Source of the DNA: Dechloromonas sp. A34 | Lineage (GTDB): Bacteria; Pseudomonadota; Gammaproteobacteria; Burkholderiales; Rhodocyclaceae | Direction of reading: 5' to 3' | Length of the DNA stretch: 64,000 nt | Assembly: GCF_026261605.1 (NCBI RefSeq) | Contig: NZ_CP102486.1 | Location: 930,001-994,000, forward strand | Part shown: positions 8,480-36,883 of the stretch, one piece after another | Position numbering within the stretch: position 1 is the first letter of the stretch | Layout of the letters: every line of letters begins with the position of its first letter | The notes under the pieces: generated by a model | Told to the model about the DNA's origin: nothing | Database searches by the model: none | Seen by the model: the letters and a program-made list of their open reading frames with translations, nothing else | Position numbers and translations under genes: made by a program

Positions 8480-8499
8480 CGTCCCGTCTCCTATTCGAC

Positions 8500-10387: not shown

Positions 10388-10396
10388 TCCTCCAGC

Positions 10397-12625: not shown

Positions 12626-12637
12626 TGTGATCGCCTG

Positions 12638-12672
12638 AAAAAAACGCCCCAGGTACGGCTGTACGCCGGGGC
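12638..12672 (-). terminator. Rho-independent terminator/attenuator between hupC and hupD
   Basis: On the minus strand a stem GCCCCGG/GTAC with one bulge and loop AGCC (bases 12672-12646, about 11 pairs) is followed by G and seven T residues (12644-12638). It lies inside an otherwise tightly packed operon, immediately after the structural genes. It would lower expression of the maturation genes relative to hupSLC. Confidence 0.75.
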
Positions 12673-12689
12673 CAACGCAAGGAAAACCT

Positions 12690-13394
12690 TTAGTCCTTGA
12701 ACATCCGCCAGCCGCTGATCATCGTCGAGATCAGCGACTGCCGGCTCATGATGTCCTCGCGGATCGCCGCGTAGACATGCACCAGCACGAAAGTCATCAT
12801 GATCCACATGCCCAGCCGGTGCAGGTTATGGACCTGCATCGAGCCGCCCAGCGCCGGGATCACCCAGCCGAACAGGCTGTCCTGCCAACTGCCCAGGCCG
12901 GCCCCTTCGCTGTACAGCGCGAAACCGGTGAACAGCATGCCGACGGCGAGCACCGTGAAGAAAAAGAACATCATCAATTGCGCCATTGGATTGTGGCCAA
13001 CGTACTTCTTCGGGGTCTTTTCGAGGAACAGATACCAGCGCAACTCGAAGAAGACTTCGTTCCACCACGCCTTGTTGGTAATTGGCAGCTTGAAGATTTG
13101 CTTGGCGTGGTGGTTGCCGACGAAAGCCCAGTAAATGCGCCCGAGCAGGCCGACGGCGAAGATGTAGGCGGCGGCGAAATGGGCGAAACGGATATAGCCC
13201 ATCAGGAAGTTGGCCGAGGCCTCGCCGGGCTGGGTGGGCAACGGCTGGCCGATGAAATAGCCGGTCACCGCCAGGACCACCATGGCCAGGGCATTGACCC
13301 AGTGCCACAGGCGGACCGGCGCTTCGTAGACATAGATCGAACGGACCTGTTTGCCGTGCCGTTCGGCTTCCAGCATGTCCTGTTGAGATAGCAT
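12690..13394 (-). CDS. hupC: Hydrogenase-linked cytochrome b (HupC/HyaC/HoxZ)
   Basis: 234-residue diheme cytochrome b with four hydrophobic helices that anchors the HupSL dimer to the membrane and passes electrons to quinone. Likely heme ligands are in RLWHWVNA, IRFAHFAAAYIF, and the C-terminal VHNLHRLGMW and VLVHVYAAI. It lies 10 bases downstream of hupL. Its presence, unlike HybA/HybB, places this enzyme in the Hyd-1/MBH type, which feeds the quinone pool at higher potential. Confidence 0.96.
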   Translation of the reverse strand: MLSQQDMLEAERHGKQVRSIYVYEAPVRLWHWVNALAMVVLAVTGYFIGQPLPTQPGEASANFLMGYIRFAHFAAAYIFAVGLLGRIYWAFVGNHHAKQIFKLPITNKAWWNEVFFELRWYLFLEKTPKKYVGHNPMAQLMMFFFFTVLAVGMLFTGFALYSEGAGLGSWQDSLFGWVIPALGGSMQVHNLHRLGMWIMMTFVLVHVYAAIREDIMSRQSLISTMISGWRMFKD

Positions 13395-21567: not shown

Positions 21568-22965
21568 TCAGTCACCGTTTTCGAGGGTTGTAATGGGCAG
21601 GCGCATGCTGATGCACAGACCGCCACCTTCGATGTTTTTCGCACTTACCTGTCCGCCGTGGGCCTCGATCGCATGGCGGGCGATCGATAGTCCAAGACCG
21701 TAACCCCTTGCCTTGTCGCCGCGGCGTCCCCGGACGAAGGGTTCGAACAGGGTTTCGAGTTCATCGTCGGGGACGCCGGGTCCGCCGTCGGCAACACTGA
21801 CCGTGACCTGGCCAGGCTCGGCAACGCCGAGTGCGATGCTGACCGCCGAACCTTCCGGGGTGTGCAGGATGGCGTTGCGAATCACGTTCTCGACGGCGCT
21901 CCGCAACAATTCGCTGCGCCCGGCAATCAGGACGTCGCCGGTGGCCTGCAAATCGATTTTTCGGCCACTCTTGCCGGTCTCGAAGCGCGCGTCATCGACG
22001 ATGTCCACCAGTAGTTCGACGAGGTCGAAACACTCCTCGTCGGGGAGTGCGGCGACGGATTTCAGTCGTGAAAGGGTCAGGGTTTCGCCCAGGGTTTTGT
22101 CCAGGCGCTCGATTTCGTAAGCGATCCGGTCGAGCATTTCCCCGGTCTTTGCCGGGGTCTGGCGGGCCAGTTCCAAGGCAATCTGCATGCGTGCGAGGGG
22201 GGAGCGCAATTCGTGCGAAACGTCATGAAGAAGCCGGGTCTTCTCCTCGATGGTGCTTTGCAGGCGGCTGGCCATGTCATCGAAGTCCCGCCCGAGATCG
22301 GCAATTTCATCGCGTCGTCGGCCGATCAGTCCGCCGACACGGGTGTCCAGATCACCGGCAGCGAACCGCCGGTTGGCCAGATGGAGATGGCGGATCGGGC
22401 GATACAGGTACCAGGTGAAGCCAGCCGCGAATAGCAGGCTGACCAGCGCCATGGCCATGACCTCGACACTGGAGGATTCGGCATAGCGATAGACGTGCTG
22501 ATGTGGCGCGACGGCGGGCAGCATCATGAGCGGCACGAAAAGCGTAAGGTCTTCACCGTTGGCCGTCGCTACCTGCTGAACGGACTTTGCCGCGGGGTTC
22601 TTCGCCAGCATGGCCCGGGCCTGGGCGAGCGCCGTTGCCGGGACCGGGCGCTCGAGAATATCCCGGCCCAGGGCATCGACCACCAGTACCGGCAGTTCCC
22701 GCTTGCCCGACCACTCCATCAATAGCTGGCGCGCCCCCTCGGTATCGGCGTGGCGCAGAGTGGTTGCAAGCAGTGTGGTGGCTAGTTCGGCGCGAAAACC
22801 GATCGACAGTTCGGGGGATTGGCGAAGTTCCGACTGGAACATCGCGTCGACGACAAAATCCACGCAAAAGGTAATGGCGGCGATGGCCAGCCAGAGCGAC
22901 AAAAAAATCTTCCAGAATAGCCGGCTCGGCACCGGCCAGCCGAGCAGGGCTTGCAGTCTTTTCAC
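21568..22965 (-). CDS. Sensor histidine kinase, CpxA-like
   Basis: 465-residue membrane kinase. An N-terminal helix (KIFLSLWLAIAAITFCV) and a second near residues 160-180 bracket a periplasmic sensor of about 120 residues. A HAMP region, the HisKA H-box HDVSHELRSPLARM (His near 247) and an HATPase domain with NVIRNAILHT and DGGPGV follow. It starts a few bases after the stop of the response regulator gene. Overall layout and the FLSLW start recall CpxA envelope-stress kinases, but no cpxP-like gene is nearby and the signal is unknown. Confidence 0.9.
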   Translation of the reverse strand: MKRLQALLGWPVPSRLFWKIFLSLWLAIAAITFCVDFVVDAMFQSELRQSPELSIGFRAELATTLLATTLRHADTEGARQLLMEWSGKRELPVLVVDALGRDILERPVPATALAQARAMLAKNPAAKSVQQVATANGEDLTLFVPLMMLPAVAPHQHVYRYAESSSVEVMAMALVSLLFAAGFTWYLYRPIRHLHLANRRFAAGDLDTRVGGLIGRRRDEIADLGRDFDDMASRLQSTIEEKTRLLHDVSHELRSPLARMQIALELARQTPAKTGEMLDRIAYEIERLDKTLGETLTLSRLKSVAALPDEECFDLVELLVDIVDDARFETGKSGRKIDLQATGDVLIAGRSELLRSAVENVIRNAILHTPEGSAVSIALGVAEPGQVTVSVADGGPGVPDDELETLFEPFVRGRRGDKARGYGLGLSIARHAIEAHGGQVSAKNIEGGGLCISMRLPITTLENGD

Positions 22966-22968
22966 GGT

Positions 22969-23667
22969 TTATGCCCGCAGCAACTGATAGCCAATCCCGT
23001 GAATGGTCTGGATCGGTGGCCGGCCGTCGTCGAATTTTCCGAGTTTGCGCCGCAGGTTGCTGACATGCATGTCGAGGCTGCGGTCGTAGCGGGCCGGGGT
23101 CCGGCCCAGTACGCGGTTGGCGAGCTCCGCCTTGGTAACGATCTGTCCGGCATGCTCGTATAGAACCTCAAGGACGTTGAACTCGGTACTGGTCAATTGC
23201 AGCGCCTCGCCACGCCAACGGGCCACGCGTTTTGCCGAGGACAAGGAGAGGGTTTCGCCAGCGGCCACTTCGGCTGACCGGGCTTCCTGCTTGCCTCCGC
23301 TACGGCGCAGGACAGCACGCAGGCGCGCCGCCAGTTCGCGCGGGTTGCAGGGCTTCGGCAGGTAATCGTCGGCCCCCAGTTCAAGTCCGATGATGCGGTC
23401 CAGGTCATCGCCCTTGGCGGTCAGCATCAGAACCGGCAATTCGCCGTGCCGACGGATGTGGCGGAGTACTTCGATGCCGCTGATGCCCGGCATCATGACG
23501 TCGAGCAGGACCAGATCGAAATTGCCGCTGGTCGCCTCGCGGCATCCGGTCTCGCCATCATGGACGGCGGACACTGCCATGCCTTCGCCGCCCAGATACT
23601 CGATCAGCATGTGACAGAAGGCCTGGTCGTCGTCAACCAGCAAGATTTGCGGCAAGCGTATTTCCAA
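22969..23667 (-). CDS. OmpR-family response regulator, CpxR-like
   Basis: 232-residue regulator with a receiver domain (acidic VDDD at 11-14, phospho-acceptor Asp56 in LLDVMMPG, Lys in LMLTAKGDD) and a C-terminal winged-helix DNA-binding domain ending GIGYQLLRA. It is co-transcribed with the downstream kinase. The region upstream (23668-24130) holds a GTAAA half-site and two palindromes that could be its targets. It is divergent from the electron-transfer genes at 24131 onward, so shared control is possible. Confidence 0.93.
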   Translation of the reverse strand: MEIRLPQILLVDDDQAFCHMLIEYLGGEGMAVSAVHDGETGCREATSGNFDLVLLDVMMPGISGIEVLRHIRRHGELPVLMLTAKGDDLDRIIGLELGADDYLPKPCNPRELAARLRAVLRRSGGKQEARSAEVAAGETLSLSSAKRVARWRGEALQLTSTEFNVLEVLYEHAGQIVTKAELANRVLGRTPARYDRSLDMHVSNLRRKLGKFDDGRPPIQTIHGIGYQLLRA

Positions 23668-24130: not shown

Positions 24131-24472
24131 ATGAACAAAAAGACCTATTTTCTGCTGTCCGGATCCTTGATCCTGGCGCTGGCCGGCAGCGGCAATCTCC
24201 ATGCCGCGATCGACGATGCCGATGCCGAGAAATTGCTCAAGGACAGCAAGTGCCTGAAATGCCATGACGTCGAGAAAACCAAGAAAGGCAAGCCCTACAA
24301 GAAGATCGCCGCCGAATACAAAGGCAAGGCGAATGCCATGGCCGAGTTGACCAAGCATGTCACGGAACCGAATCAGGTCGAGGTTGAAGGCGAAAAGGTC
24401 GATCACGGCACCGTCAAGACACGCGACGCCGCAAGAATTACCAATCTGATCGAGTGGATATTGGCCCGCTGA
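24131..24472 (+). CDS. Small periplasmic monoheme cytochrome c (MtoD-like position)
   Basis: 113-residue protein with a signal peptide (KKTYFLLSGSLILALAGSGNLHA) and one heme motif CLKCH. Length and flanking helices (GKPYKKIAAEYKGKA, ITNLIEWILA) match class I c-type cytochromes. The usual C-terminal methionine ligand loop (MPP type) is absent and a VDHGTVKT segment stands there, so the distal ligand may be histidine. The ATG at 24131 follows GGGGGAACT. It precedes the decaheme/porin genes as mtoD accompanies mtoAB in iron-oxidising Sideroxydans. It probably shuttles electrons across the periplasm. Confidence 0.82.
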   Translation: MNKKTYFLLSGSLILALAGSGNLHAAIDDADAEKLLKDSKCLKCHDVEKTKKGKPYKKIAAEYKGKANAMAELTKHVTEPNQVEVEGEKVDHGTVKTRDAARITNLIEWILAR

Positions 24473-24527
24473 GGTTTGGCAAGTCAGGGGTTACAAAAGT
24501 AAGGCAAGAAAGCACGGGGGTTTGGTC

Positions 24528-25388
24528 ATGAAACGTTTTATTGGAATTGCAGCGGTATTACTGGGGACACTGCTGTCCGCCCCCATCATCGCGGCACCTG
24601 CCGCAAAATCTGCTCCGGTTGGGGCGGCGTGCGTCAGCTGCCACGAAGCTGAAACCAAGGCTCACGCCTATCACGGCGACTGCGTCAGCTGCCATACGAG
24701 CGCGGCGGATCACGCCAAGGTCGAAGAAGCGCGCGAAAACGCCACAGCCAAGACCGCCAAACCCAAGAGTGTTTTGGCCGGTCTGCCGGAATCGAAGCAA
24801 TGTCTGACCTGTCACGAGACCGATAGAAAGCGCACACACTTCGCCTTTGCCGAGCACAACAAGGCCGGCGTCCAATGTAACGACTGTCACGGCAACCACA
24901 CCGACAAGGTCAAAAAGCTGAATGCATCCCAGCTCAAGGGTGGCAAAACTACGGCTCTGTGTGCAACCTGCCACCAGGACGTACTGGCCAAGTTCAACAT
25001 GCCTTCGCATCATCCCGTCAAGGAAGGCGGCGCCACCTGCACCGGCTGCCATGACCCGCATGCATCCAAGCAAGCCACGCTGGGTGCGGTCACCGAGCAA
25101 TGCACATCCTGCCATCAGGCTGTTCGTGGCCCCCACGTCTTCGAGCATGCACCGGTCGTCGAAGGTTGCACCACCTGCCATGATCCCCACGGCGCGCCTA
25201 ATCGCAAGCTGCAAACCATCGCCCAGCCAATGCAGTGCCTGCAATGTCACTCAATTGCCGGCAACCGGCATGGCCTGGGTGGCACCTCCAGCAACGTCGC
25301 ACCAATCTCCGGTTCCGTTCTGCGCGATTGCGTCAGTTGCCACAGCGCCATCCACGGCAGCTCAACTGACCAGCATCTGAGATTCTGA
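24528..25388 (+). CDS. mtrA: Decaheme cytochrome c, MtrA/MtoA/DmsE family
   Basis: 286-residue secreted cytochrome (signal MKRFIGIAAVLLGTLLSAPIIAAPA) with ten CxxCH motifs: CVSCH, CVSCH, CLTCH, CNDCH, CATCH, CTGCH, CTSCH, CTTCH, CLQCH and CVSCH. I chose the ATG at 24528, with MVMKRF from 24522 as the alternative. Ten hemes and the following MtrB-type barrel gene identify it as the electron wire that fills the outer-membrane porin. It can run outward (metal reduction) or inward (Fe(II) oxidation). No outer-surface MtrC-type decaheme is encoded nearby, as in Mto/Pio systems. It is 11 bases from the porin gene. Confidence 0.92.
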   Translation: MKRFIGIAAVLLGTLLSAPIIAAPAAKSAPVGAACVSCHEAETKAHAYHGDCVSCHTSAADHAKVEEARENATAKTAKPKSVLAGLPESKQCLTCHETDRKRTHFAFAEHNKAGVQCNDCHGNHTDKVKKLNASQLKGGKTTALCATCHQDVLAKFNMPSHHPVKEGGATCTGCHDPHASKQATLGAVTEQCTSCHQAVRGPHVFEHAPVVEGCTTCHDPHGAPNRKLQTIAQPMQCLQCHSIAGNRHGLGGTSSNVAPISGSVLRDCVSCHSAIHGSSTDQHLRF

Positions 25389-25399
25389 GGGGAAACATC

Positions 25400-27571
25400 A
25401 TGCATGCGAAATCACAGAAGAAAGTCCTGGCCCTCGCCATTGCCGGCCTGTTTGCCTCGCCCTTGTACGCTGCCGAAGCAGTTTCTGAAGGAATGGCCAT
25501 CATCGGGGAAGTGACCGCCAAGCTCTTTGCCTTCGATTATTTCAAGGGCGCCGACGCAAGCCGTACCCAGTTTCTGGAGCGCTACAACTACCAGAAAGGC
25601 ATCGGCGACGACAATCGCTCTGGCGCCTATCTCGATCTGGATCTCGATATTGTCGCTAACAATGGTCAGCGCAATGTCTTCGTTCTGAAGCGCGACAGTT
25701 TCGGCGAGTACAACCAACGCAATATCCTAAAAGCCAACACTGACCTGTTCGGGGTTACCGGCTACTACAACAATTTCCGCTCCTCCACTGCCGGACTGGG
25801 GTTTCTTTACAGCCCGGGACAAATTCCGAGCGGTGGTGTGGATACGACTTACGGAGCAGCATCTCAGACTGGCTTTGTCAGGCAATTCAACAACGACTCG
25901 CTTGGGCAAAGTGTTTTCAAGGTTGACCGTCAAACTTACGGTATTGGTGTCGATCTGAAACCTGAAGTGCTTGGCAAGAAGCTCAACGCTTCGCTGGAAT
26001 ACGACGGCTACGCCCGGGACGGCAATCGTTTTGCCACTTACGTGCTGGGAAACGGTGACCTGACAGGTGGCAACGCCAATAAGCGGCCGCTCCGCTGGCG
26101 CGGCTTCGATGCCCCGATCGATGAAAAAATGAACCGCTACACCTTCAGCCTGAATGGCTCGCCGGGCGGATTCAATCTGGGCTACGAAGGCCGCCTAGAA
26201 AAGTTCGAAAGTAGCCGAAACTTCACGATTGGCGATTTCGGTGCTCAGATTACCGCTCAAGATGCAACTGTCGCGCCCACCAATGCTGCTGTCGCACGCC
26301 GTCCTATTCAGTACGCTCCGGACAGCACTCTCATTTCCAACAATTTCCGTTTTGCCAAGAGCTTCGGGGCCACTTCTGTTGCTGCCGGCTATGGCCTATC
26401 TGTGCTTGATCAGGATTCGTTCTCGCAACAACAGCAGTTTGTCGGCTACAGCACCGGAAAAATCACCACCAACAGTGCCTATGCCAGCGTCAGCAGCAAT
26501 ATCATCAGTGGCGTTGGTCTGGATGGCTTTATCCGCTACAACCATCGTAAAAACAATTCGGACTTTCCGGTTGCCGGGCTGATCACGCCGACAGCTACTG
26601 AAGGTCTTGATGTCCGGATCAACCAGATTGAAGCCTTGAGCTATGGCATCTCTGCCACCATACGGCCCGGCTTCCTGAAATCGACGGCGACTCTTGGCTG
26701 GAAACATGAAGACAAGGATCGCGACCTGACCTGGAGTCAGTGGGGTGGTGGTGTAGTCTCGATCAACCAGGCGCAGACCCTCTACCGTAACGACACCCGC
26801 GTCGACGAGCTTTTCCTGAAGTGGGTCGCCCGACCGATGCCGGGGCTCATCGTGCGCGTCACGCCTTCCTACGCCCTGGCCAACAGCACCGGCTTGGTAA
26901 CTGAACCCGAAAGGGCTCTCAATCTGAAAACCCAGCTGAGCTATACGACTACCAAGGGCATTCAGACAAGCGGTTACTACAATTACAAGCGCGCAGAAAA
27001 CGGCAAAAACGCCTTTACCAGCAGCGCCGCAGGTGGTGCCCTGGGCGCGTCGGTTCAACAGGAGACCGAGAAAACGCTCCAATCGGCAGGCGTTTCGGTG
27101 AACGTGCCGGTCAGCGAATGGATCAATACCTACGCCAGTTTCTCGTGGCTTCAGGATAATTTCTCCAGCTACCTGATGCGTAATGACGCTCGTCGCTATG
27201 ACGCGCCAACGGCAGCCATCAATTTTCTGGCGATCGACCGGCCAAACTACAAGATCGACAGCTATGTCGTCTCACTGGGTGGCGACTGGCAGGTCAGCGA
27301 TCCGCTACGCTTGAATGCCGGTTATACCTGGACCCAATCGAAGGGCGATACGGCTTCCGGTTACGTCGGTACGCAACTGGCCGCCGGCAACAGCATCGAC
27401 GGCGTGATCAACAGCAACGTTCATACGCTGACCCTTGGCGTGGACTACGAGTTGAAAAAGCGGATGAAACTGCGAGGCACCTATGTCTATGACTACTACA
27501 CCGACAACGCCTACACAGCCCTGACCGGGGCTTATCAAGGCCTTATGGTTGGTGTTTCGCTGGGCTTTTGA
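25400..27571 (+). CDS. mtrB: Outer-membrane beta-barrel porin, MtrB/MtoB/PioB family
   Basis: 723-residue protein with a signal peptide (VLALAIAGLFASPLYA) and a long run of alternating amphipathic strands separated by loops, ending in an aromatic barrel terminus (GLMVGVSLGF). Size and linkage to the decaheme gene match MtrB-family porins, which sheathe the cytochrome across the outer membrane. I see no cysteine in the mature N-terminus, unlike Shewanella MtrB with its CxxC; MtoB and PioB-type proteins also vary there. Base composition is somewhat less GC-rich than neighbouring metabolic genes, as is usual for barrels. Confidence 0.88.
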   Translation: MHAKSQKKVLALAIAGLFASPLYAAEAVSEGMAIIGEVTAKLFAFDYFKGADASRTQFLERYNYQKGIGDDNRSGAYLDLDLDIVANNGQRNVFVLKRDSFGEYNQRNILKANTDLFGVTGYYNNFRSSTAGLGFLYSPGQIPSGGVDTTYGAASQTGFVRQFNNDSLGQSVFKVDRQTYGIGVDLKPEVLGKKLNASLEYDGYARDGNRFATYVLGNGDLTGGNANKRPLRWRGFDAPIDEKMNRYTFSLNGSPGGFNLGYEGRLEKFESSRNFTIGDFGAQITAQDATVAPTNAAVARRPIQYAPDSTLISNNFRFAKSFGATSVAAGYGLSVLDQDSFSQQQQFVGYSTGKITTNSAYASVSSNIISGVGLDGFIRYNHRKNNSDFPVAGLITPTATEGLDVRINQIEALSYGISATIRPGFLKSTATLGWKHEDKDRDLTWSQWGGGVVSINQAQTLYRNDTRVDELFLKWVARPMPGLIVRVTPSYALANSTGLVTEPERALNLKTQLSYTTTKGIQTSGYYNYKRAENGKNAFTSSAAGGALGASVQQETEKTLQSAGVSVNVPVSEWINTYASFSWLQDNFSSYLMRNDARRYDAPTAAINFLAIDRPNYKIDSYVVSLGGDWQVSDPLRLNAGYTWTQSKGDTASGYVGTQLAAGNSIDGVINSNVHTLTLGVDYELKKRMKLRGTYVYDYYTDNAYTALTGAYQGLMVGVSLGF

Positions 27572-27578
27572 TGCCCCC

Positions 27579-27655
27579 GACCGCCTTGTTCGCGAGGCGG
27601 TCTTCGAAGACTGACAGTTTCCATCAAGGCACGAGCGAATTCCTCGTGCCTTTTT
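27579..27655 (+). terminator. Tandem hairpins ending in a terminator after the porin gene
   Basis: A first stem GACCGCCT/AGGCGGTC (27579-27602) is followed by a second, AAGGCACGAG/CTCGTGCCTT (27626-27652), running into a T run. This is a convincing Rho-independent terminator between the porin gene and the cytochrome b fusion gene at 27671, whose ATG is only 16 bases further on. Confidence 0.8.
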
Positions 27656-27670
27656 CTTGAGGCGTAAGCC

Positions 27671-29656
27671 ATGCTTAGCACCAAATCCCTCCGCCCGCTG
27701 CTTGGCGGATTCCTCTTGAGTGTTGCCCTGTTTTCAGGGGCGGCTGGCGCCACGCCGGCCGCTAGCGACAAACTCGACAATGCAACCTGTCTTTCCTGCC
27801 ACGACGGAAAGAAAGGCAAGTTGGAAGTCGATGGGGCAGACGGCGAAAAACGTGCCTTGCTATCGGTTCGCGACGCTGCTTTCGGCAAGAGTGTGCATGC
27901 AAAAATGGAATGTATCGCTTGCCACAGCGACATCAAGGACAATAAGGCGCCGCACGAAAAAAGCGGGCCGGCGGCAAAAGTTGACTGCGTCCAGTGTCAC
28001 ACCGAGCTCTGGGAAAATGCCCGGAAAGAGGGTAGGGCTACCGAAAAGCCGCGCCTGGGCCTGATCGTAGAAAATATTGAAGCCCACAAGAAATCCTTTC
28101 ATGGCCGAGCCAACGAGGATGACCCGTCGCGAATCAACGCCGCCTGCGACCAGTGCCACGATACGCATAGCTTCAATATCCCCACAAAGGACAGCCCGGA
28201 CTATGCCGAATGGCGACTGACCACCCCCAAGGTCTGCGCCAATAGCTGTCACGAGGAGCAACTCGAAGAATATGCAGCCTCGGCACATGGAGCGGCGGTA
28301 CTGGACAAGGGGGATGCCAAGGCTGCTGTCTGCGTCGATTGCCATACCAGCCACGCCATCGGTGCCACTGCAGCATCTCCAGTCAGGCTGGCAATTACCG
28401 AGCGTTGCGGCAACTGCCATGAAGCAAACCTGAAGAGCTACCGGGCAACCTATCACGGCCAAGTTGGTGCTCTGGGGCACGCCTACACGGCCAAGTGTTT
28501 CGACTGTCACGGCAGCCACGGTATTCTCAAGGCTGACAACGAGGACTCATCGATTCACCCGAACAATCTGCTGGAAACCTGCCAGAAGTGCCACACCGAC
28601 AAGAAGCCCGGGATGCGGACGGCGACCGCCGGCTTCGTCAGCTTCGGGCCCCACGCCCATGGTGGTGATTTCAAGAAATACCCCGAAATGTGGATTGCCA
28701 CGAAATTCATGGTCGGTCTGCTGATCTTCGTCTTTGCCTTCTTTTGGGCGCATTCCGGCCTCTGGTATTACCGTGAATGGAAGGACCGCAAGCAGGGCAA
28801 ACGCGCCGTTCATGTCAAGACCGAGGGCCTCGATCTCGACGAAACCAAACATTTCAAGCGCTTCCCCTGGGGGTGGCGTATCGCTCACCTGGCCTTTGCC
28901 CTGGTCACGATGACTCTGGTGCTGACCGGAACTTCCGCCCTCTTTGCTGAAAGCAGCTGGGCGCCGGTTGTTTCGAACGCCTTGGGCGGACCGCGGCAGC
29001 TCGGCCTGATTCATCGCATTGCCGCGGCACTGTTTGTTGGAATCTTCCTGATCCACTTCGTCTATGTCATGCAGAAGCTGTTGCGCGACAAGACTTTCCG
29101 CTGGTTTGGCCCGGATTCGCTGATTCCGAATTGGAAGGACTTGGCCGACTGCTGGGGCATGTTCAAGTGGTTCTTCGGCAAGGGGCCGCGGCCACAGTTC
29201 GACCGCTGGGCCTACTTCGAGAAGTTCGACTACTGGGCCGTCTTCTGGGGGGTGAACATCATCGGCTGGAGCGGCCTGATGCTGGCTTTTCCGCATATCA
29301 CGGCGACTTACCTGCCGGGCTGGGTGTTCAACGTCGGGACGCTGGTTCACGGCGAGGAGGCTTTCCTGGCCGCCGTCTTCCTGTTCACTGTGCATTTCTT
29401 TAACAATCATTTCCGTCCGGACAAGCTGCCGCCACCGGATATCGTGATGTTCACCGGCACGCAGTCGATCGAGGAATTCCGCCACGACCACCCGGCCCAG
29501 TACCAGCGCCTGGTTGATGCTGGCGAACTGGAGAAGTATCTGGTCGATGCCCCGTCGGCGCCGCTGGCCCTGGGTTCGAAGATTCTCGGACTGGTCCTGA
29601 TTGCCGCCGGCCTGATTTTGCTGGCACTGGTCAGCATAGGCTTCTTCGGCGGCTAG
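27671..29656 (+). CDS. Nonaheme cytochrome c fused to membrane cytochrome b (CbcL-like)
   Basis: 661-residue inner-membrane protein. After a signal peptide, residues about 35-320 hold nine heme sites: CLSCH, CIACH, CVQCH, CDQCH, an unusual CANSCH (three residues between the cysteines), CVDCH, CGNCH, CFDCH and CQKCH. From about residue 340 there are five or six membrane helices with paired histidines (IAHLAF, LIHRIAAALFVGIFLIHFVYV, VHGEEAFLAAVFLFTVHFFNNHF), as in FdnI/HydC-type diheme cytochromes b. Nine c hemes plus a cytochrome b is the architecture of Geobacter CbcL, a quinone/periplasm oxidoreductase. Here it would link the quinone pool to the MtrAB-type conduit in place of CymA. It ends at the strong terminator 29676-29701. 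Confidence 0.85.
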   Translation: MLSTKSLRPLLGGFLLSVALFSGAAGATPAASDKLDNATCLSCHDGKKGKLEVDGADGEKRALLSVRDAAFGKSVHAKMECIACHSDIKDNKAPHEKSGPAAKVDCVQCHTELWENARKEGRATEKPRLGLIVENIEAHKKSFHGRANEDDPSRINAACDQCHDTHSFNIPTKDSPDYAEWRLTTPKVCANSCHEEQLEEYAASAHGAAVLDKGDAKAAVCVDCHTSHAIGATAASPVRLAITERCGNCHEANLKSYRATYHGQVGALGHAYTAKCFDCHGSHGILKADNEDSSIHPNNLLETCQKCHTDKKPGMRTATAGFVSFGPHAHGGDFKKYPEMWIATKFMVGLLIFVFAFFWAHSGLWYYREWKDRKQGKRAVHVKTEGLDLDETKHFKRFPWGWRIAHLAFALVTMTLVLTGTSALFAESSWAPVVSNALGGPRQLGLIHRIAAALFVGIFLIHFVYVMQKLLRDKTFRWFGPDSLIPNWKDLADCWGMFKWFFGKGPRPQFDRWAYFEKFDYWAVFWGVNIIGWSGLMLAFPHITATYLPGWVFNVGTLVHGEEAFLAAVFLFTVHFFNNHFRPDKLPPPDIVMFTGTQSIEEFRHDHPAQYQRLVDAGELEKYLVDAPSAPLALGSKILGLVLIAAGLILLALVSIGFFGG

Positions 29657-29794: not shown

Positions 29795-30403
29795 ATGCTC
29801 GAAGCTGACAATCTGGAATGCGTGCGTGGCGAGCGCCGCCTGTTCAAGGGCCTCGGCTTTCGGCTGGAGGCTGGCGAATTGCTCTACCTGCAAGGCAAGA
29901 ACGGCGCCGGCAAGACCAGCCTGTTGCGCATGCTGATCGGCCTGCTGCCGCCGGAAGCTGGCGAAATTCGCTGGAAGGGCAAATCGATCAAGTCCGACGA
30001 GTTTCGCGCCGACCTCTGCTATCTCGGGCATTTGAACGCCATCAAGGAAGAATTGACGCCGCTGGAAAACCTGCTCGCTGCCGCCCGTCTGGCCGAGGAG
30101 GATCTCTCCGAGGACGATGCCATCGATGCGCTGGAACAGGTCGGACTGGCCGGCCGTGAGGATCTCGCCTGCAAATATCTCTCGCAAGGCCAGAAGCGAC
30201 GGGTCGCCCTGGCCCGCCTGGTCAAGGAAAAACGCCCTTTGTGGATACTCGATGAACCCTTCGTTGCGCTCGACGTGGCGGCGGTGGACTGGTTGGCCGG
30301 TATCATTTCCGGCCATCTGCAACGCGGCGGTCTGGCCGTGATGACGACCCACCAGCTGGTTACCATTCCGGCCGGCAAGGTCCGCGAATTGCGGCTCTCC
30401 TGA
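29795..30403 (+). CDS. ccmA: Heme exporter ATP-binding protein CcmA
   Basis: 202-residue ABC ATPase of cytochrome c maturation System I. Walker A GKNGAGKTS is near residues 36-44, the signature is LSQGQKRR, and Walker B is LWILDEPF. With CcmB, CcmC and CcmD it drives release of holo-CcmE. First gene of ccmABCDEFGHI-napF. Its last base overlaps the ccmB ATG. Confidence 0.96.
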   Translation: MLEADNLECVRGERRLFKGLGFRLEAGELLYLQGKNGAGKTSLLRMLIGLLPPEAGEIRWKGKSIKSDEFRADLCYLGHLNAIKEELTPLENLLAAARLAEEDLSEDDAIDALEQVGLAGREDLACKYLSQGQKRRVALARLVKEKRPLWILDEPFVALDVAAVDWLAGIISGHLQRGGLAVMTTHQLVTIPAGKVRELRLS

Positions 30404-31070
30404 TGTTCAAGATCGTTACCGCGGTAATCGGCCGCGATCTCAAACTGGCCATGCGGCGGCAGGCGGACATCGTCTCGGCGCTGTTCTTCTTCGTCATCGT
30501 GGTCAGCCTGTTTCCGCTCGGCATCGGGCCGGAACCCGATCTGTTGCGCAAGCTGGCGCCCGGTGTGCTCTGGGTCGCGGCGCTGCTTGCCACCATGCTC
30601 TCGCTGCCCAGGCTGTTCGCCGACGACCATCGCGACGGCACGCTGGAGCAACTGGCGCTGGCCCCGCATCCGCTCGGCCTGGTGGTGACTGGGAAGGTGA
30701 TCGCTCACTGGCTGGTCTCCGGTCTGCCGCTGGCGCTGATCGCACCGGTGCTCGGCATCCAGTTCGATCTCTCGGCCGATGCCCTGCTCGTGCTGACCGG
30801 CGCCATCCTGCTTGGCACTCCGGCGCTGTCCGGCATCGGCGCCATCGGCGCCGCGCTGACCCTCGGTCTGCGCGGCGGCGGCGTACTGCTCTCGCTGCTC
30901 GTATTGCCGCTCTACATACCGGTGCTAATATTCGGCGCTGGCGCAGTGGATGCGACGGTGTCCGGTCTCGGGGGGAAGGGCACCTGTCGCTGCTCGCCGC
31001 CCTGACTTTTGCCTCACTTGGCTTTGCCCCTTGGGCATCGGCCGCTGCCTTGAAGATTGCCCTCGAATGA
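30403..31070 (+). CDS. ccmB: Heme exporter membrane protein CcmB (single frameshift)
   Basis: Six-helix membrane subunit of the CcmABCD complex. The start frame runs 200 residues and ends KGTCRCSPP at 31005, losing the last helix. Adding one base in the G run at about 30970-30975 restores SLLAALTFASLGFAPWASAA and a stop at 31068-31070 that overlaps the ccmC ATG as ATGA. This gives a 222-residue protein, the normal CcmB length. A true null would block maturation of all the multiheme cytochromes next door, so a sequencing or assembly error is the simplest explanation. Confidence 0.92.
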
Positions 31071-31813
31071 AAGACCGCTTCAATCTTTACCGCTTTGCCT
31101 CGCCGGCGACGTTCTACCCCCTGGCCGGTGCGATGATTCCTTATTTCGTCGCCGTTTCGGTTGTCTTCGGTCTCGCCGGGCTGTGGCTCGGCATGCTGGT
31201 GGCGCCGACCGACTTTCAGCAGGGTGAGGGCTACCGGATCATCTTCATCCACGTCCCGGCGTCCTGGATGTCGATGTTCATCTACTTGGTGATGGCCTTC
31301 TGGGCCGCCATCGGCCTCGCCTTCAACACCCGTCTGTCGGGCATGATGGCCCAGGCCCTGGCCCCGACCGGCGCGCTGATGGCCTTCCTCTCGCTGTGGA
31401 CCGGTGCCTTGTGGGGCAAACCGATGTGGGGTGCCTGGTGGGTCTGGGATGCCCGGCTGACCTCCGAACTGATCCTGCTTTTCCTCTATATCGGCTACAT
31501 GGCGCTGACCGCGGCGATCGACGATGCCCGCCGCGCCGACAAGGCTGGGGCGCTGTTGCTGCTGGTCGGCGTCGTCAACATCCCGATCATCTATTTCTCG
31601 GTGAAATGGTGGAACACCCTGCACCAGGGCTCCAGCATCAACCTGACCAAGTCCTCGATGGCGACCACGATGCTCTGGGGCATGCTGCTGATGGCGATGT
31701 GTTTCTGGATGTATTCGATTGCCGTGGCCTTGATGCGGGCGCGTACCATCATGCTCGAACGCGAGCGCAACAACGACTGGGTCAAGGCCGTGCTGGCCGG
31801 AGGTGAAAAATGA
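31067..31813 (+). CDS. ccmC: Heme exporter protein CcmC
   Basis: 248-residue six-helix heme-handling protein with the tryptophan-rich WWD motif (WGAWWVWDARLTSEL) that presents heme to CcmE. I chose the ATG at 31067 (MKDRFNLYRFASPATFY), which overlaps the corrected ccmB stop. The frame is open upstream only because of the ccmB shift. The stop overlaps the ccmD ATG as ATGA. Confidence 0.96.
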   Translation: MKDRFNLYRFASPATFYPLAGAMIPYFVAVSVVFGLAGLWLGMLVAPTDFQQGEGYRIIFIHVPASWMSMFIYLVMAFWAAIGLAFNTRLSGMMAQALAPTGALMAFLSLWTGALWGKPMWGAWWVWDARLTSELILLFLYIGYMALTAAIDDARRADKAGALLLLVGVVNIPIIYFSVKWWNTLHQGSSINLTKSSMATTMLWGMLLMAMCFWMYSIAVALMRARTIMLERERNNDWVKAVLAGGEK

Positions 31814-31997
31814 TCCACTGGAACAGTTTTTCCGATTTCCTCGCCATGGGGGGTACGGTCTATACGTCTGGGGCTCCTTTGGCATGACCGCCCTGATCAT
31901 GCTTATTGAACCGATTGCCGTTGCGCGCAATCGAAAGATCACCATTGCACGTCTCAAACGCCAGTTGCGCGCTGAAAACAGGAACACTACTGAATGA
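31810..31997 (+). CDS. ccmD: Small membrane protein CcmD (single frameshift)
   Basis: CcmD stabilises the CcmABC-CcmE complex. The ATG at 31810 gives [15 protein letters not shown], the typical CcmD start. The family continuation [17 protein letters not shown] lies one frame over. Adding one G to the run at 31848-31853 joins them into a 62-residue protein with one membrane helix and a basic tail, ending at 31997 with ATGA overlap to ccmE. An alternative in-frame reading from 31803 ([10 protein letters not shown]) lacks the conserved N-terminus and is not favoured. Confidence 0.85.
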
Positions 31998-32485
31998 AAT
32001 CCCGTCACAAGAAACTCGCCCTGATCGGTGGCGCCCTGGTCATCTTCGGCATCATTGTTTGGCTTGTGCTGAATGCGCTGAACAGCAATATCGCGTTGTT
32101 TAAGTCGCCCACCGAGGTGGCATCGGGCCAGTATCCGAAGAATCAAGTCTTCCGCATCGGTGGTCTGGTCAAGGAAAGCAGCCTGGCCCGCGAGGCCGAC
32201 GGCGTGACCGTCCGTTTTGTCGTTACCGACAACGAAAAGGACGTCACGGTGAACTACAAGGGCATCCTTCCTGACTTGTTCAAGGAAGGGAAGGGCGTTG
32301 TTGCCCAGGGCAAGCTGACCACTGAAGGCACCTTCATTGCCAACGAGGTATTGGCCAAGCACGACGAAAACTACATGCCGCCGGAGGCCGCTCAGGCCGT
32401 CGGCGACGCTCACGCCCGGGCGGCCGAAAAGAAGGCCGCGGCTGAAGCGGCCGGTACCCCGCCCAAACCCGGCACGAGCTACTGA
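31994..32485 (+). CDS. ccmE: Heme chaperone CcmE
   Basis: 163-residue membrane-anchored periplasmic protein that carries heme covalently on a histidine. It has an N-terminal helix ([19 protein letters not shown]), a beta-barrel core, and the heme-binding His in [12 protein letters not shown]. The tail is Ala/Lys-rich. Overlaps ccmD and lies 2 bases before ccmF. Confidence 0.97.
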
Positions 32486-32487
32486 TC

Positions 32488-34482
32488 ATGATCCCCGAAC
32501 TCGGCAATTTCGCGCTGATCCTCGCCGCATTGGTGGCACTGGTGCTCGGCACGCTGCCCTTGCTCGGCGCCCACAAGAACCGTATGGCCTGGGTCGCTGT
32601 GGCCCGCCCTGCGACCTCGGCACTGGCGCTGTTGGTAACTTTCTCCTTTGCTTGCCTGACCCACGCTTTCGTCAATAATGACTTCTCGGTGGTCTATGTC
32701 GCCCAGCACTCGAATTCGCTGCTGCCGCTGCAATACCGTGTCGCCGCCGTCTGGGGCGGCCATGAGGGCTCGTTGCTGTTGTGGATGCTGATGCTGACCT
32801 GGTGGGCCTTCGCTGTCCGCATGTTGTCGCGACAACTGCCGGAAACCATGGTCGCCCGGGTGCTCGGCACGCTCGGCCTGGTCGCCTTCGGCTTCCTGCT
32901 TTTCATCCTGATCACCTCCAACCCCTTCGAGCGCCTGTTGCCGGCAGCCGCTGAAGGCCGTGACCTGAATCCGCTGTTGCAGGACTTCGGGTTGATCATC
33001 CACCCCCCCTTGCTCTACATGGGCTACGTCGGTTTCTCGGTGGCCTTTGCCTTCGCCATTGCGGCGCTGCTCTCCGGCCAGTTGGATGCCGCCTGGGCGC
33101 GCTGGTCGCGGCCATGGACGACCGCCGCCTGGTGCTTCCTGACCCTGGGCATCGCCATGGGCTCATGGTGGGCTTATTACGAACTGGGCTGGGGCGGCTG
33201 GTGGTTCTGGGATCCGGTCGAAAACGCTTCCTTCATGCCCTGGCTGGTTGGCACGGCGCTGGTGCACTCGCTGGCGGTCACTGAAAAGCGCGGCAGCTTC
33301 AAGAACTGGACGGTCCTGCTAGCGATTACCGCCTTCTCGCTGTCGCTGCTCGGTACCTTCCTGGTGCGTTCTGGCGTACTGACCTCGGTGCATGCATTCG
33401 CTACCGATCCGACTCGCGGCATCTTCATTCTGGTCTTCCTTGTCGCCGTGATTGGCAGTTCGCTAGCGCTCTTCGCCTGGCGGGCCCCCAAGGTCGGCCT
33501 GGGCGGGCGTTTTGCGCTGATTTCGCGCGAATCGATGCTGCTCACCAATAACGTGCTGCTCGCCGTCGCCTGCGCCACGGTGCTGCTTGGCACGCTCTAT
33601 CCACTGCTGATCGATGCGCTGGCGCTGGGCAAGATCTCGGTCGGTCCGCCGTATTTCAACGCGGTATTCGTGCCGGTGATGACGCCCTTGCTCTTCCTGA
33701 TGGGCATTGGCCCCTTCGCCCACTGGAAGGATGCGTCGATTCCGGAAATCCTGCGTACCGTGCGCTGGGCTTTCGCTGCCGCCATCGTGGTTGCCATCGT
33801 CGTGCCGCTGCTCTACGGCACCTGGTCGCCGCTGACCGCCCTCGGTTTGCTGGCCGCGGCGTGGATCGTGCTGGCCGGGGCAATCAATTTTGTCGGGCGC
33901 GTGCAGAGCACCCGCGCCGGACAATCCTTCCTGAAGGCGGCGCTCAAGCAGCCGCGCAGCTTCTTCGGCATGCACGTGGCGCACTTCGGGATCGCCGTCT
34001 TTGTCGTCGGCGTCACCATGGTAAGCAGCTTCCAGGATGAAAAAGACATCAAGATGGCTCGCGGCGACAGCGTCGATGTCGCCGGCTACCACTTCACCTT
34101 CAACGGCGTGAAGACGGTGCAAGGGCCGAACTACGTGGCGGCGCAGGGCGACTTCGATCTGGCGATCAATGGCAAGTTCCAACGCAAGATGAACCCCGAG
34201 AAGCGCAACTACCATTCGTCGCAGATGCCAATGACCGAAGCCGCGATCGATGCCGGCTTCCTGCGCGACGTCTATGTTTCGCTCGGTGAACCGATCGACC
34301 GCGCGCGGCCGGAAGGCGAGTGGGCGGTGCGCGTCTATTACAAACCCTTTGTCGACTGGATCTGGGGCGGTTGCCTGCTGATGGCACTCGGTGGCCTGCT
34401 CGCCATCCTCGACCGGCGCTACCGCGTCAAATCCCGCGCCGCTTCGGCAGTCAATATCCCGGCTGGAACTCAACAAGCATGA
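32488..34482 (+). CDS. ccmF: Cytochrome c heme lyase subunit CcmF
   Basis: 664-residue polytopic membrane protein that joins heme from CcmE to apocytochrome CxxCH motifs. The WWD signature GWGGWWFWDPVENASFMPW is present near residue 235. Full family length, with a large periplasmic C-terminal part. Stop overlaps ccmG as ATGA. Confidence 0.97.
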   Translation: MIPELGNFALILAALVALVLGTLPLLGAHKNRMAWVAVARPATSALALLVTFSFACLTHAFVNNDFSVVYVAQHSNSLLPLQYRVAAVWGGHEGSLLLWMLMLTWWAFAVRMLSRQLPETMVARVLGTLGLVAFGFLLFILITSNPFERLLPAAAEGRDLNPLLQDFGLIIHPPLLYMGYVGFSVAFAFAIAALLSGQLDAAWARWSRPWTTAAWCFLTLGIAMGSWWAYYELGWGGWWFWDPVENASFMPWLVGTALVHSLAVTEKRGSFKNWTVLLAITAFSLSLLGTFLVRSGVLTSVHAFATDPTRGIFILVFLVAVIGSSLALFAWRAPKVGLGGRFALISRESMLLTNNVLLAVACATVLLGTLYPLLIDALALGKISVGPPYFNAVFVPVMTPLLFLMGIGPFAHWKDASIPEILRTVRWAFAAAIVVAIVVPLLYGTWSPLTALGLLAAAWIVLAGAINFVGRVQSTRAGQSFLKAALKQPRSFFGMHVAHFGIAVFVVGVTMVSSFQDEKDIKMARGDSVDVAGYHFTFNGVKTVQGPNYVAAQGDFDLAINGKFQRKMNPEKRNYHSSQMPMTEAAIDAGFLRDVYVSLGEPIDRARPEGEWAVRVYYKPFVDWIWGGCLLMALGGLLAILDRRYRVKSRAASAVNIPAGTQQA

Positions 34483-35063
34483 ACCGTTATTTCTGGATTC
34501 TTGGCGGCTTTGCCGCCCTCGTCGTTTTGCTCGCCGTCGGCCTGGGCCTCAATCCGCGCGACGTGCCGTCGCCGCTGGTCGGCAAGCCGGCCCCGGCCTT
34601 CAACCTGAACGTGTTGGCAACGCCGGACACGACCCTGGGGCCGAAGGACATGCAGGGCAAGGTCTGGCTGCTCAACGTCTGGTCTTCGTGGTGTGTTTCC
34701 TGCCGTGCCGAACACCCGGTGCTGGTCGATTTCTCGCGGAAATCGGACGTCCCGCTGATTGGCCTCAATTACAAAGAAGTGCGCGGTGACGGCGAATTCG
34801 ATATCAGCAAGATGGCGCCTGAAGACGAGAAGAAACTGGCCTTCCAGCGAGCCAACCGCTGGCTGGCCCAGCATGGTGATCCCTACAAGCTGACCGTGAT
34901 GGACCTCGATGGCCGGGTCGGCATCGACTACGGCGTCTATGGTGTGCCCGAGACCTACGTCATCGACAAGGGCGGCATCATCCGCATGAAGCATACCGGC
35001 CCGATTTCGCCGGACGTGCTCGCCAAGAAGATCATGCCGCTGGTCGCGGAGCTGAGCAAATGA
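34479..35063 (+). CDS. ccmG: Thiol:disulfide oxidoreductase CcmG/DsbE
   Basis: 194-residue membrane-tethered thioredoxin-fold protein with active site WCVSC and cis-Pro region GVYGVPETYVID. It reduces apocytochrome cysteines before heme attachment. The start at 34479 (MNRYFWILGG) overlaps the ccmF stop; the open frame upstream is a shadow of ccmF. The stop overlaps the ccmH ATG. Confidence 0.96.
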   Translation: MNRYFWILGGFAALVVLLAVGLGLNPRDVPSPLVGKPAPAFNLNVLATPDTTLGPKDMQGKVWLLNVWSSWCVSCRAEHPVLVDFSRKSDVPLIGLNYKEVRGDGEFDISKMAPEDEKKLAFQRANRWLAQHGDPYKLTVMDLDGRVGIDYGVYGVPETYVIDKGGIIRMKHTGPISPDVLAKKIMPLVAELSK

Positions 35064-35548
35064 GCTTTCGCGCACTGATCCTGGCCGGCGTGCTGATTTG
35101 TTTACCCGGCGTTCCCTCCGTCCTCGCCTCGCCGGCCAGCGAGGCGGCACTGGCGGCGGACCCGGTCGCCGAGAAGCGCCTGCAGAAGCTCTCCGAAGAG
35201 TTGCGCTGCCTGGTCTGCCAGAACCAGACGATTGCCGACTCCAATGCCGAGCTGGCCCAGGATCTGCGCCGCGAAATCCGCGGCATGCTCAAGGAAGGCA
35301 AGACGGACAAGGAGATCATCGATTTCATGGTCGTCCGCTATGGCGATTTCGTCCTCTACCGGCCACCGGTCAAGGGCGTCACGCTGCTGCTCTGGGGCGG
35401 GCCGCTCGCCTTGATGCTGTTCGGTATCTTCGCATTGCTGCGCTACCTGCGCCGTCGTGCCACCCGTATCAATGCCGAAGACCATCCGCTCTCGGCCGAT
35501 GAAGCCAGTCGCGTCGACGCGCTGCTCAAGGAAGCTGAACCCAAATGA
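35060..35548 (+). CDS. ccmH: Cytochrome c maturation protein CcmH (CycL)
   Basis: 162-residue protein with a signal peptide, the redox motif LRCLVCQNQ in a three-helix periplasmic domain, and one C-terminal membrane helix (LLLWGGPLALMLFGIFALL). It reduces or holds the apocytochrome with CcmG. Overlaps ccmG and ccmI by four bases each. Confidence 0.96.
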   Translation: MSFRALILAGVLICLPGVPSVLASPASEAALAADPVAEKRLQKLSEELRCLVCQNQTIADSNAELAQDLRREIRGMLKEGKTDKEIIDFMVVRYGDFVLYRPPVKGVTLLLWGGPLALMLFGIFALLRYLRRRATRINAEDHPLSADEASRVDALLKEAEPK

Positions 35549-36399
35549 CCGTGTTTGCCATTATTGCCACCCTGTTGATCGTGGTGGTCAGTGCCTTTGT
35601 TTTGCCGCCTCTCTGGCTTGGTCTGCGCGCTCCCGATGGGCAGGCTGACCGCAAGGAGATTAATCTGGCCATATTCCGTGACCAGTTGGCCGATCTGGAA
35701 CGCGAAAAAGCTGACGGCACCCTGAGCGAGGCCGATTTCGAGCAGGCACGGCGCGAACTGCAGCGTCGCTTGCTCGAAGAGGTCGAGCCCGCCGATGCAT
35801 CCGGCGCGGCACAGGCCGGCTACGGCCCGAGTCGCAAGATGGCGATTGTCATTCTGATGCTGCTGCCACCGCTGGCCTTGGTCGGGTACAGCGTTCTCGG
35901 CGACCCGAAGGCGCTCGATCCGACCTCGACGCCGGCCGTCGAGCAGGCAAAAGTCACCCCTGAACAGATCAATGGCATGGTCGAGCAACTGGCAGCAAAG
36001 ATGCAGGCCAATCCGGACGATATGCAGGGATGGCTGATGCTGGCGCGCTCCTACAAGGCGCTCGGCCGTTTTGAAGAAGCCGTGCAAGCGTATGGCAAGG
36101 CCGAAAAAGTCGTCAATGAGACGCCGGATCTGCTGGCCAGCTATGCCGAAGCCGTCGCCATGGCCGGTGGCAGTGGCTTGCTCGGCAAACCCCAGCAACT
36201 GGTCGAGAAGGCACTGACAATCGATCCCAACCATGGCCACAGTCTTTTCCTGGGCGGTGCGGCGGCGATGGAGGCTGGTGACAACAAGAAAGGCATCGCC
36301 TACTGGGAAAAATTGCTGCCGCAGGTCGAGCCGGGATCGGAAATCGAGCAGATGCTGAAGAGCGGCATCGACAAGATGAAGCAGGAAAAACAGGGCTGA
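35545..36399 (+). CDS. ccmI: Apocytochrome chaperone CcmI (CycH)
   Basis: 284-residue protein with two N-terminal membrane helices and a periplasmic TPR domain (residues about 125-280) that binds apocytochrome C-termini and presents them to CcmF/CcmH. The domain holds repeats such as PDDMQGWLMLARSYKALGRF. It is separate from ccmH here, unlike the fused E. coli CcmH. Confidence 0.92.
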   Translation: MTVFAIIATLLIVVVSAFVLPPLWLGLRAPDGQADRKEINLAIFRDQLADLEREKADGTLSEADFEQARRELQRRLLEEVEPADASGAAQAGYGPSRKMAIVILMLLPPLALVGYSVLGDPKALDPTSTPAVEQAKVTPEQINGMVEQLAAKMQANPDDMQGWLMLARSYKALGRFEEAVQAYGKAEKVVNETPDLLASYAEAVAMAGGSGLLGKPQQLVEKALTIDPNHGHSLFLGGAAAMEAGDNKKGIAYWEKLLPQVEPGSEIEQMLKSGIDKMKQEKQG

Positions 36400-36403
36400 T
36401 CCG

Positions 36404-36883
36404 ATGGTCGATGCCAGCCGCCGGGGCTTCTTGCGCGGTCGGCCCCGGCCGCAGGCCGAGATTCGCCCGCCCTGGGCGCTGCCTGAAGAGGGCTTTATCG
36501 ACCGCTGTACGCGCTGCAATGACTGCCTGAAAGCCTGTCCGCAAAAAATTCTCGTGATCGGCGACGGTGGCTACCCGACCGTCGATTTCAGCCACGCCGA
36601 ATGCACCTTTTGCGGTGACTGTGTCGCCGCCTGCCAACCCAGAGCCTTGATGCGTCTCGATAACGCCGCCTTGCCCTGGCAGCGCAAAGCCTTCATCAGC
36701 GACGCCTGTCTGGCTCGCCAGGGCGTCGAGTGCCGCATTTGCGGCGACTTCTGCGATGTCCGGGCGATTCGGTTTATGCCGCGCCTAGGCGGCAGCCCTT
36801 TACCCGAAATCGACAGCGAACTCTGCACCGGCTGCGGGGCTTGTGTCGCGCCCTGCCCAAGTCGGGCGATTGCCATTCGCTGA
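36404..36883 (+). CDS. napF: Ferredoxin-type protein NapF
   Basis: 159-residue cytoplasmic protein with four cysteine clusters (CTRCNDCLKACP, CTFCGDCVAAC, CRICGDFCD, CTGCGACVAPCP) and an N-terminal SRRGFLRG segment, all as in NapF. NapF assists maturation of the periplasmic nitrate reductase NapA. It follows ccmI by 4 bases, but napD/A/B are not adjacent. In E. coli nap and ccm form one operon, so this may be a remnant of that linkage or the nap genes lie elsewhere. Confidence 0.9.
   Translation: MVDASRRGFLRGRPRPQAEIRPPWALPEEGFIDRCTRCNDCLKACPQKILVIGDGGYPTVDFSHAECTFCGDCVAACQPRALMRLDNAALPWQRKAFISDACLARQGVECRICGDFCDVRAIRFMPRLGGSPLPEIDSELCTGCGACVAPCPSRAIAIR

Follow-up and report, generated by a model that had tools for sequence, protein, structure and literature searches.

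A divergent MtrAB/MtoAB-type gene cluster joined to a CbcL-like cytochrome in Dechloromonas sp. A34

What kind of electron conduit is encoded by a cluster in which a decaheme cytochrome and an outer-membrane barrel stand beside a CbcL-like cytochrome, and by which protein is such a conduit tied to the quinone pool? The question is raised by a stretch of 64,000 nucleotides (C1:930001-994000, hereafter the window) from the 4.76 Mb single-contig genome of Dechloromonas sp. A34, in which four open, closely spaced genes, namely mtoD, mtoA, a barrel gene and mtoC, run along the plus strand at 24131-29656. Their presence and coordinates, first given in an initial annotation of the window, are confirmed. 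Together, the four genes probably encode an envelope-spanning electron-transfer chain, that is, a trans-outer-membrane wire tied to the quinone pool by MtoC; the window conduit belongs to a deep-branching and rare lineage of MtrAB/MtoAB, and it coexists with a canonical mtoDABC locus in the same genome.

The four genes and their divergent branch

The products of the four genes carry one, ten, no and nine c-heme sites, respectively, the last of these comprising eight CX2CH motifs and one CX3CH motif. The mtoD-like gene (24131..24472, plus strand) encodes a monoheme cytochrome c of 113 aa with one CXXCH and an N-terminal signal-like stretch, which matches 4xxl, the MtoD of Sideroxydans with bis-His heme ligation (PMC4412085), at 73 bits (E 2e-19). 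His92 of the window protein is conserved as His in 92 of 94 aligned MtoD-like proteins and in 4xxl, and it presumably replaces the usual Met as the second heme ligand. The mtoA/mtrA-like gene (24528..25388, plus strand) encodes 286 aa from the ATG at 24528, with ten CXXCH, and its product matches 6r2q_A over residues 53-280 (E 4.3e-36, 128 bits); this chain, which we take to be MtrA, belongs to an entry entitled 'Structure of the Mtr complex' and is labelled otherwise in the structure file. The best family model of the window MtoA is the DmsE-named TIGR03508 (173.8 bits, under the cut-off of 192.2 despite the ten CXXCH), and the same model is also best for canonical MtoAs, two of which score 256 and 280 bits.

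The third gene (25400..27571, plus strand) encodes an outer-membrane beta-barrel of 723 aa without CXXCH, which scores 48.4 bits on the Pfam MtrB_PioB model PF11854 (cut-off 23) and is thereby placed inside rather than outside the MtrB family; the canonical barrel of the same genome scores 464 bits. The fourth gene, mtoC (27671..29656, plus strand), encodes 661 aa in which a nonaheme c domain is fused to a cytochrome b membrane domain, as in the CbcL/MtrH/MtoC family. The nine c-heme sites and His406, His448, His560 and His575 are invariant in 30 of 30 aligned relatives, and an AlphaFold2 model (mean pLDDT 75) predicts six long helices in the second half of the protein. Its best fold match is FdnI (1kqf_C, E 1.9e-3, TM-score 0.76 over the target; no match at E<=0.001), and its best NCBIfam match, weak at 22 bits, is a formate-dehydrogenase gamma/FdnI type b cytochrome; both point to this type of cytochrome rather than to a nitrite or tetrathionate reductase family. 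On the NapC/NirT model the window MtoC stays under the cut-off (19.6 vs 24.1). A search for relatives of the fusion at E<=1e-20 was positive in 13 of the 249 other genomes examined in the order; in three of them the relative is partial (G002, G201 and, with the b domain only, G145). The CX3CH motif is the fifth c-heme site of the window protein (residues 189-194); among 86 MtoCs, 69 have eight CX2CH and one CX3CH, and 16 have nine CX2CH.

The four-gene order is kept in three further loci (L034, L136 and L137), where mtoA and the barrel are 91-97% identical to those of the window. Because mtoA and mtoD have structure matches, the barrel has its Pfam score, the fusion has relatives and the gene order is kept, the cluster is not a product of chance.

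The second, canonical mtoDABC of the genome is located at about 519-525 kb of C1 (L003, C1:512000-531000, 7335-12944, minus strand) and adjoins a GacA/NarL-like (LuxR-type) two-component system. The MtoC and MtoD proteins of the two loci are 66% and 50% identical; the MtoA proteins reach 32%, and BLAST finds no significant similarity between the window barrel and the canonical one (best E 0.23), so that the outer-membrane pair of the window represents another type, referred to as type w. A search with the single window barrel sequence recovered 1 of 398 other genomes of the order, none of 397 of the phylum and 2 of 248 of the family, and a seven-row barrel profile at E<=1e-40 recovered 11 of 394 other family genomes, including 2 of 21 other same-genus genomes listed; all these samples overlap. 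Together with G145 and three named-collection loci, two of which are identical to loci already in the set, the family matches give 14 distinct type-w loci, the window among them. Their MtoAs form one clade with support of 100/100, separated by 3.14 changes per column from 43 canonical MtoAs, in a tree whose canonical rows were restricted to those with exactly ten CXXCH and a length of 270-480 aa. In two same-genus genomes (G1089 and G1119), the type-w barrel is the only PF11854 match, and type w can therefore be the sole conduit. The initially proposed porin-cytochrome conduit has been upheld by the homology of mtoA to 6r2q_A and of the barrel to PF11854; missing from the initial proposal were the canonical mtoDABC elsewhere in the genome and the place of type w on a distant branch rather than among ordinary MtoAB conduits.

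It might be supposed that the canonical mtoDABC iron-oxidation operon was duplicated in this genome and that the window cluster is simply the copy, since diverged, and the shared gene order as well as the identities of MtoC and MtoD speak for such an origin. This origin is quite unlikely, however, and a simple duplication is rejected: the two MtoAs fall into separate clades with full support, the two barrels find no significant match in each other, the two MtoCs are not sisters in their tree, the regulators differ in type (CpxAR-like at the window vs a GacA/NarL-like regulator and kinase at the second locus), and the same-genus genomes G1089 and G1119 carry the type-w barrel only.

Quinone modules of the type-w loci

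The pairing of MtoAB with a CbcL-like protein, initially regarded as a new hybrid route, has already been published as mtoABCD/mtoC (PMC5566968, PMC6295460), and so has its modularity. According to these reports, Sideroxydans ES-1 has a tetraheme CymA and Gallionella ES-2 a nonaheme MtoC, with D. aromatica RCB resembling ES-2 (He 2017, PMC5566968); RCB and ES-2 carry mtoC together with mtoA, mtoB and mtoD, and in seven further species mtrH/mtoC accompanies mtrAB/mtoAB (Zhong & Shi 2018, PMC6295460). No experimental test of the pairing was found in the portions of the literature searched. What is unusual is the type-w branch with its exchanged modules, of which no description was found in the literature searched; that search took in few subscription papers and no bioRxiv preprints, which makes this weak evidence of absence.

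Compared with known systems, the window shares the four kinds of genes with the mtoABCD of Gallionella capsiferriformans ES-2 and Dechloromonas aromatica RCB, in which MtoC is the proposed quinone link; it differs in that its MtoA and barrel are remote from the canonical clade of the present trees, the second locus being of the canonical type; the ES-2 and RCB clusters were compared by description. The mtoABD-cymA cluster of Sideroxydans lithotrophicus ES-1 likewise holds MtoD, MtoA and MtoB, with no MtrC in the available descriptions, but its inner-membrane partner is a NapC-family tetraheme CymA, named ImoA in PMC13390432; such a partner occurs in 6 of 14 type-w loci and not in the window. 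CbcL of Geobacter sulfurreducens is, like the window MtoC, a single chain that combines nine c-heme sites with a six-helix b domain of the HydC/FdnI kind, and it is about 35% identical to MtoC of RCB and ES-2 (PMC6295460). From the MtrCAB of Shewanella, with which the decaheme and barrel core (6r2q) is common, the window differs in its distantly related barrel, in a cluster without CymA and in a genome without MtrC over the cut-off.

Within type w, the inner-membrane partner varies from locus to locus. MtoC alone is present in 6 of 14 loci (the window, L034, L085 (identical to L141), L136, L137 and L143), a NapC/CymA-type tetraheme alone in three (L124, L140 and L142), both in three (L101 (identical to L138), L125 and L139, with MtoC cut by the contig end in the latter two) and neither in two (L118 and L144). 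Wherever the tetraheme occurs, it lies between mtoD and mtoA (6/6). Two of the six tetrahemes were scanned with Pfam NapC/NirT and passed it (218 and 240 bits, cut-off 24), and on NCBIfam three type-w tetrahemes are NapC/NirT- or TorC-like, below those cut-offs; the tetraheme of L125, a short open reading frame (ORF), has three CX2CH and one CX3CH. The NapC-family genes of the Dechloromonas sp. A34 genome itself are located at 1.25 and 2.64 Mb, with a marginal match inside the second MtoC and none in the cluster. As the initial annotation had proposed, therefore, the fusion with its nine c sites and six-helix b domain takes the place of the Sideroxydans CymA, no NapC tetraheme being present in the cluster: the CbcL-like protein of the window stands where relatives have a CymA-type protein. 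We know of no MtrAB-type cluster that includes the CbcL of Geobacter.

In a quick tree of 86 MtoCs, from which sequences under 560 aa were left out, eight MtoCs from type-w loci are found in three separate places, and forcing those of type-w loci into one clade is 439 log-likelihood units worse (AU test p 1.5e-61); for the partial L125 protein, the nearest MtoC is the one from L143. Likewise, the six type-w tetrahemes occupy three places among 42 sequences (one clade: AU p 5.5e-4), fragments under 120 aa or with stops having been left out. A single ancestral CymA-type gene had been expected for the type-w branch, but the tetraheme tree fails to show it. Counts of modules cannot separate gain from loss; most simply read, the data indicate a conduit that was kept and inner-membrane partners that were swapped several times.

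It is conceivable, though doubtful, that type w is an outer-membrane conduit with a function of its own, into which different quinone modules can be plugged, and that a swap from CymA to MtoC changes the energetics. A CymA-type protein is one-sided and not charge-moving. MtoC has b hemes across the membrane, and electrons that travel through it between the periplasm and a quinone site on the cytoplasmic side would make the flow electrogenic. In such a case, the repeated swaps would record how energy coupling evolved while the wire in the outer membrane remained the same, and the substrate might be other than Fe. One conduit clade with three inner-membrane arrangements makes the effect of the quinone module on direction, potential window and energy yield testable while the outer part is held constant.

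The wider distribution of MtoC was surveyed in the best 80 named MtoC loci among the matches listed, with 9 kb on each side and with labels that derive from BLAST matches to a small set of reference genes; these had been named by eye, and seven were checked by Pfam. A canonical mtoA or barrel is present within 9 kb in 39 of these loci, type w in 3 and neither in 38; among the 54 loci with more than 5.5 kb upstream and more than 3.5 kb downstream, the corresponding numbers are 31, 2 and 21. A gene matching an MtrC/MtrF-like 10-heme protein, the reference for which scores 164 bits on PF22113, lies within 9 kb of mtoC in 8/39 canonical, 0/3 type-w and 1/38 other loci. The loci with neither conduit include genes for EB_dh (8), a molybdopterin enzyme (5, plus one labelled NapA), a 7-heme cytochrome (4), a NapC-type protein (3) and a flavocytochrome c sulfide dehydrogenase-like (FCSD) protein (1). 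The notion that MtoC means extracellular electron transfer as a rule is ruled out by the 38 of 80 loci that lack both conduit types within 9 kb. MtoC looks like a general quinone hub, a role that CymA has in Shewanella. A molybdopterin enzyme lies within 9 kb of mtoC in L049, L080, L092, L093 and L102; that of L092 is ArrA-like (969 bits on the ArrA model, under its cut-off of 1600), a hint that arsenic respiration may be among the processes that MtoC serves.

Proposed conduit function, rival explanations and direction

In the proposed chain, electrons would cross the outer membrane through the decaheme MtoA seated inside the MtrB-type barrel, as homology to MtrAB suggests, and the monoheme MtoD-like protein would work in the periplasm. 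The nine c hemes of MtoC would take up the electrons, and its b hemes would pass them to or from the quinone pool, in keeping with the FdnI-like fold; the assembly of these proteins into one complex and the nature of the substrate are likewise to be regarded as predictions from the genes.

The cluster could instead be a periplasmic respiratory system that stays inside the outer membrane, with an unrelated porin as the barrel. The weak Pfam score of the window barrel is consistent with such a system, as are two further results: a PDB search with the type-w barrel profile recovers no MtrB, the only match being the unrelated 6k1t_A at E 0.84 (the canonical barrel profile finds 6r2q_B at 1e-98), and the barrel of L118 has no PF11854 match at E<=0.01, though it is 53% identical to that of the window. 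A periplasmic system of this kind is nevertheless very improbable. The PF11854 cut-off is passed by 13 of 14 type-w barrels (32.7-76.6 bits), mtoA adjoins the barrel in 14 of 14 type-w loci, and a profile-profile comparison of the type-w barrel with canonical MtoB gives a score of 141 over 614 aligned columns with a probability of 98.8%. Six block-shuffled controls reach probabilities of 91-96%, so that the probability alone is not trusted; these controls score 62-85 over 145-323 columns, and it is by score and aligned length that the true pair is told from them, a reversed profile and two single-sequence controls remaining at a probability of 0.2%. Foldseek with the AlphaFold2 model of the barrel ranks 6r2q_B first (7e-10) and a TonB-type receptor next (3e-5), a ranking that may count as support only together with the sequence evidence. 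In a genome-level search with PF11854, nothing was found in G145 and G1093, that is, in 2 of 12 type-w genomes; as the type-w branch shows, conduits can escape a search that relies on the MtrB model.

In addition to the PDB search and the L118 barrel, several points weigh against a trans-outer-membrane wire tied to the quinone pool by MtoC. The AlphaFold2 model of the barrel is weak (mean pLDDT 50, from an alignment of four rows), none of the eight type-w MtoAs scanned reaches the TIGR03508 cut-off of 192.2 (162-184.5 bits), two long branches (L057 and L144) are flagged in the MtoA tree, and the MtoC trees come from quick searches that carry no bootstrap values. The role as a conduit is a prediction from the genes, and the presence of MtoC beside ArrA-like, EB_dh and FCSD systems means that MtoC is no proof of extracellular transfer. 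PMC13390432 reports that the MtoD of ES-1 interacts neither with MtoA nor with the inner-membrane tetraheme, and the MtoD step of the proposed chain may therefore be wrong.

The same neighbours of MtoC relatives, in combination with the DmsE-named family that scores best for the decaheme, might suggest that the cluster works not with metals but with a reductase or oxidase of its own outside the cell, as DmsEF does with DMSO. Such an enzyme is unlikely; the DmsE-named family is likewise best for canonical decahemes, and no molybdopterin enzyme was recognised around the window, L034, L136 and L137, where part of the ORFs was scanned with family models.

With the envelope-spanning chain as the preferred explanation, the direction of electron flow is almost evenly balanced, with a slight lean to electron uptake and with reduction of a metal or Mn(III) nearly as probable. 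The lean to uptake derives from the RuBisCO large subunit and from the lack of an MtrC-family protein over the cut-off. The former is present in all three genomes tested, i.e., the genome itself and two same-genus genomes that carry type w only; it agrees with electron uptake and is no proof of it. As for the latter, the initial claim that an MtrC-like surface cytochrome is missing has been borne out both in the cluster and genome-wide, where the best match to the OmcA/MtrC model TIGR03507 is 20.1 bits vs a cut-off of 209.3. The lean to reduction derives from two 11-heme proteins encoded elsewhere in the genome (L120 and L121), which exceed the cut-off of PF22113 (MtrC/MtrF-like), and from an Mn(III)-reducing Dechloromonas cited in the literature. 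PF22113 is not specific, as the window MtoA itself scores 32 vs a cut-off of 30, and these matches therefore neither establish nor exclude a surface partner.

A reducing direction, as a sub-case of the envelope-spanning chain and not exclusive of it, would have MtoC oxidise quinol and the electrons leave the cell, with Mn(III), Fe(III), humics or a partner cell as acceptor and the 11-heme proteins perhaps serving as a relay at the surface. This course is a credible possibility rather than the expected one. It is consistent with the two 11-heme proteins, within the limits of the model, with the MtrC/MtrF-like 10-heme genes near canonical mtoC and with reports in which Geobacter CbcL is a proposed quinol oxidase (PMC6295460) and the reduction of Mn(III) by a Dechloromonas is linked to Mto proteins together with an occ multiheme cluster (PMC8258643). 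Against it stand the absence of any MtrC-family protein over the cut-off in the genome and the finding that, in the mapped type-w loci, no listed ORF besides MtoA and MtoC has more than four CXXCH. The 11-heme protein of L121 (C1:612000-626000) is encoded at 6193-8883. At L120 (C1:3712000-3731500), the 11-heme PF22113 protein is accompanied by a triheme 'nanowire' domain protein, an NHL-repeat-like protein and a peptidyl-prolyl isomerase, a combination that may resemble the occ cluster of the Mn(III)-reducing Dechloromonas.

Neighbouring genes

Upstream and divergent from the conduit, a CpxA-like sensor histidine kinase (21568..22965, minus strand) has CpxA models as its best NCBIfam matches, below the cut-offs, and a CpxR/OmpR-type response regulator (22969..23667, minus strand) has CpxR as its best NCBIfam match (219 bits, below the cut-off of 341). 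CpxAR-like regulators are present at 7 of 14 type-w loci, the window included, and all of these have MtoC directly after the barrel. Kinase or LuxR-type regulator matches of the kind found at the second locus occur at six type-w loci, being weak in L118 and L124, and five of these six loci have a CymA-type tetraheme.

Directly downstream of the conduit, the cytochrome c maturation genes ccmABC-EFGHI (29795..36399, plus strand) were assigned by NCBIfam; ccmA, ccmB, ccmC, ccmF, dsbE, ccmE and ccmI exceed their cut-offs, and ccmH is an NrfF-type match under its cut-off. They are followed by a napF-like ferredoxin gene (36404..36883, plus strand; TIGR00402 at 137.6 bits, cut-off 102). The linkage of conduit and ccm genes is also found in L136 and L137, and in L118 the ccm genes come after a cytochrome gene with two CXXCH. 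The ccmB of the window (30403-31005) encodes 200 aa, whereas the L136 and L137 versions have 222 aa. Its NCBIfam match ends at position 183 of 211, as though the reading frame had changed close to the C-terminus. Further upstream, a very large CBS-PAS-GAF-GGDEF-EAL-CZB protein is encoded at 16551-21557, and its homologues in L136 and L137 are also located upstream of the conduit.

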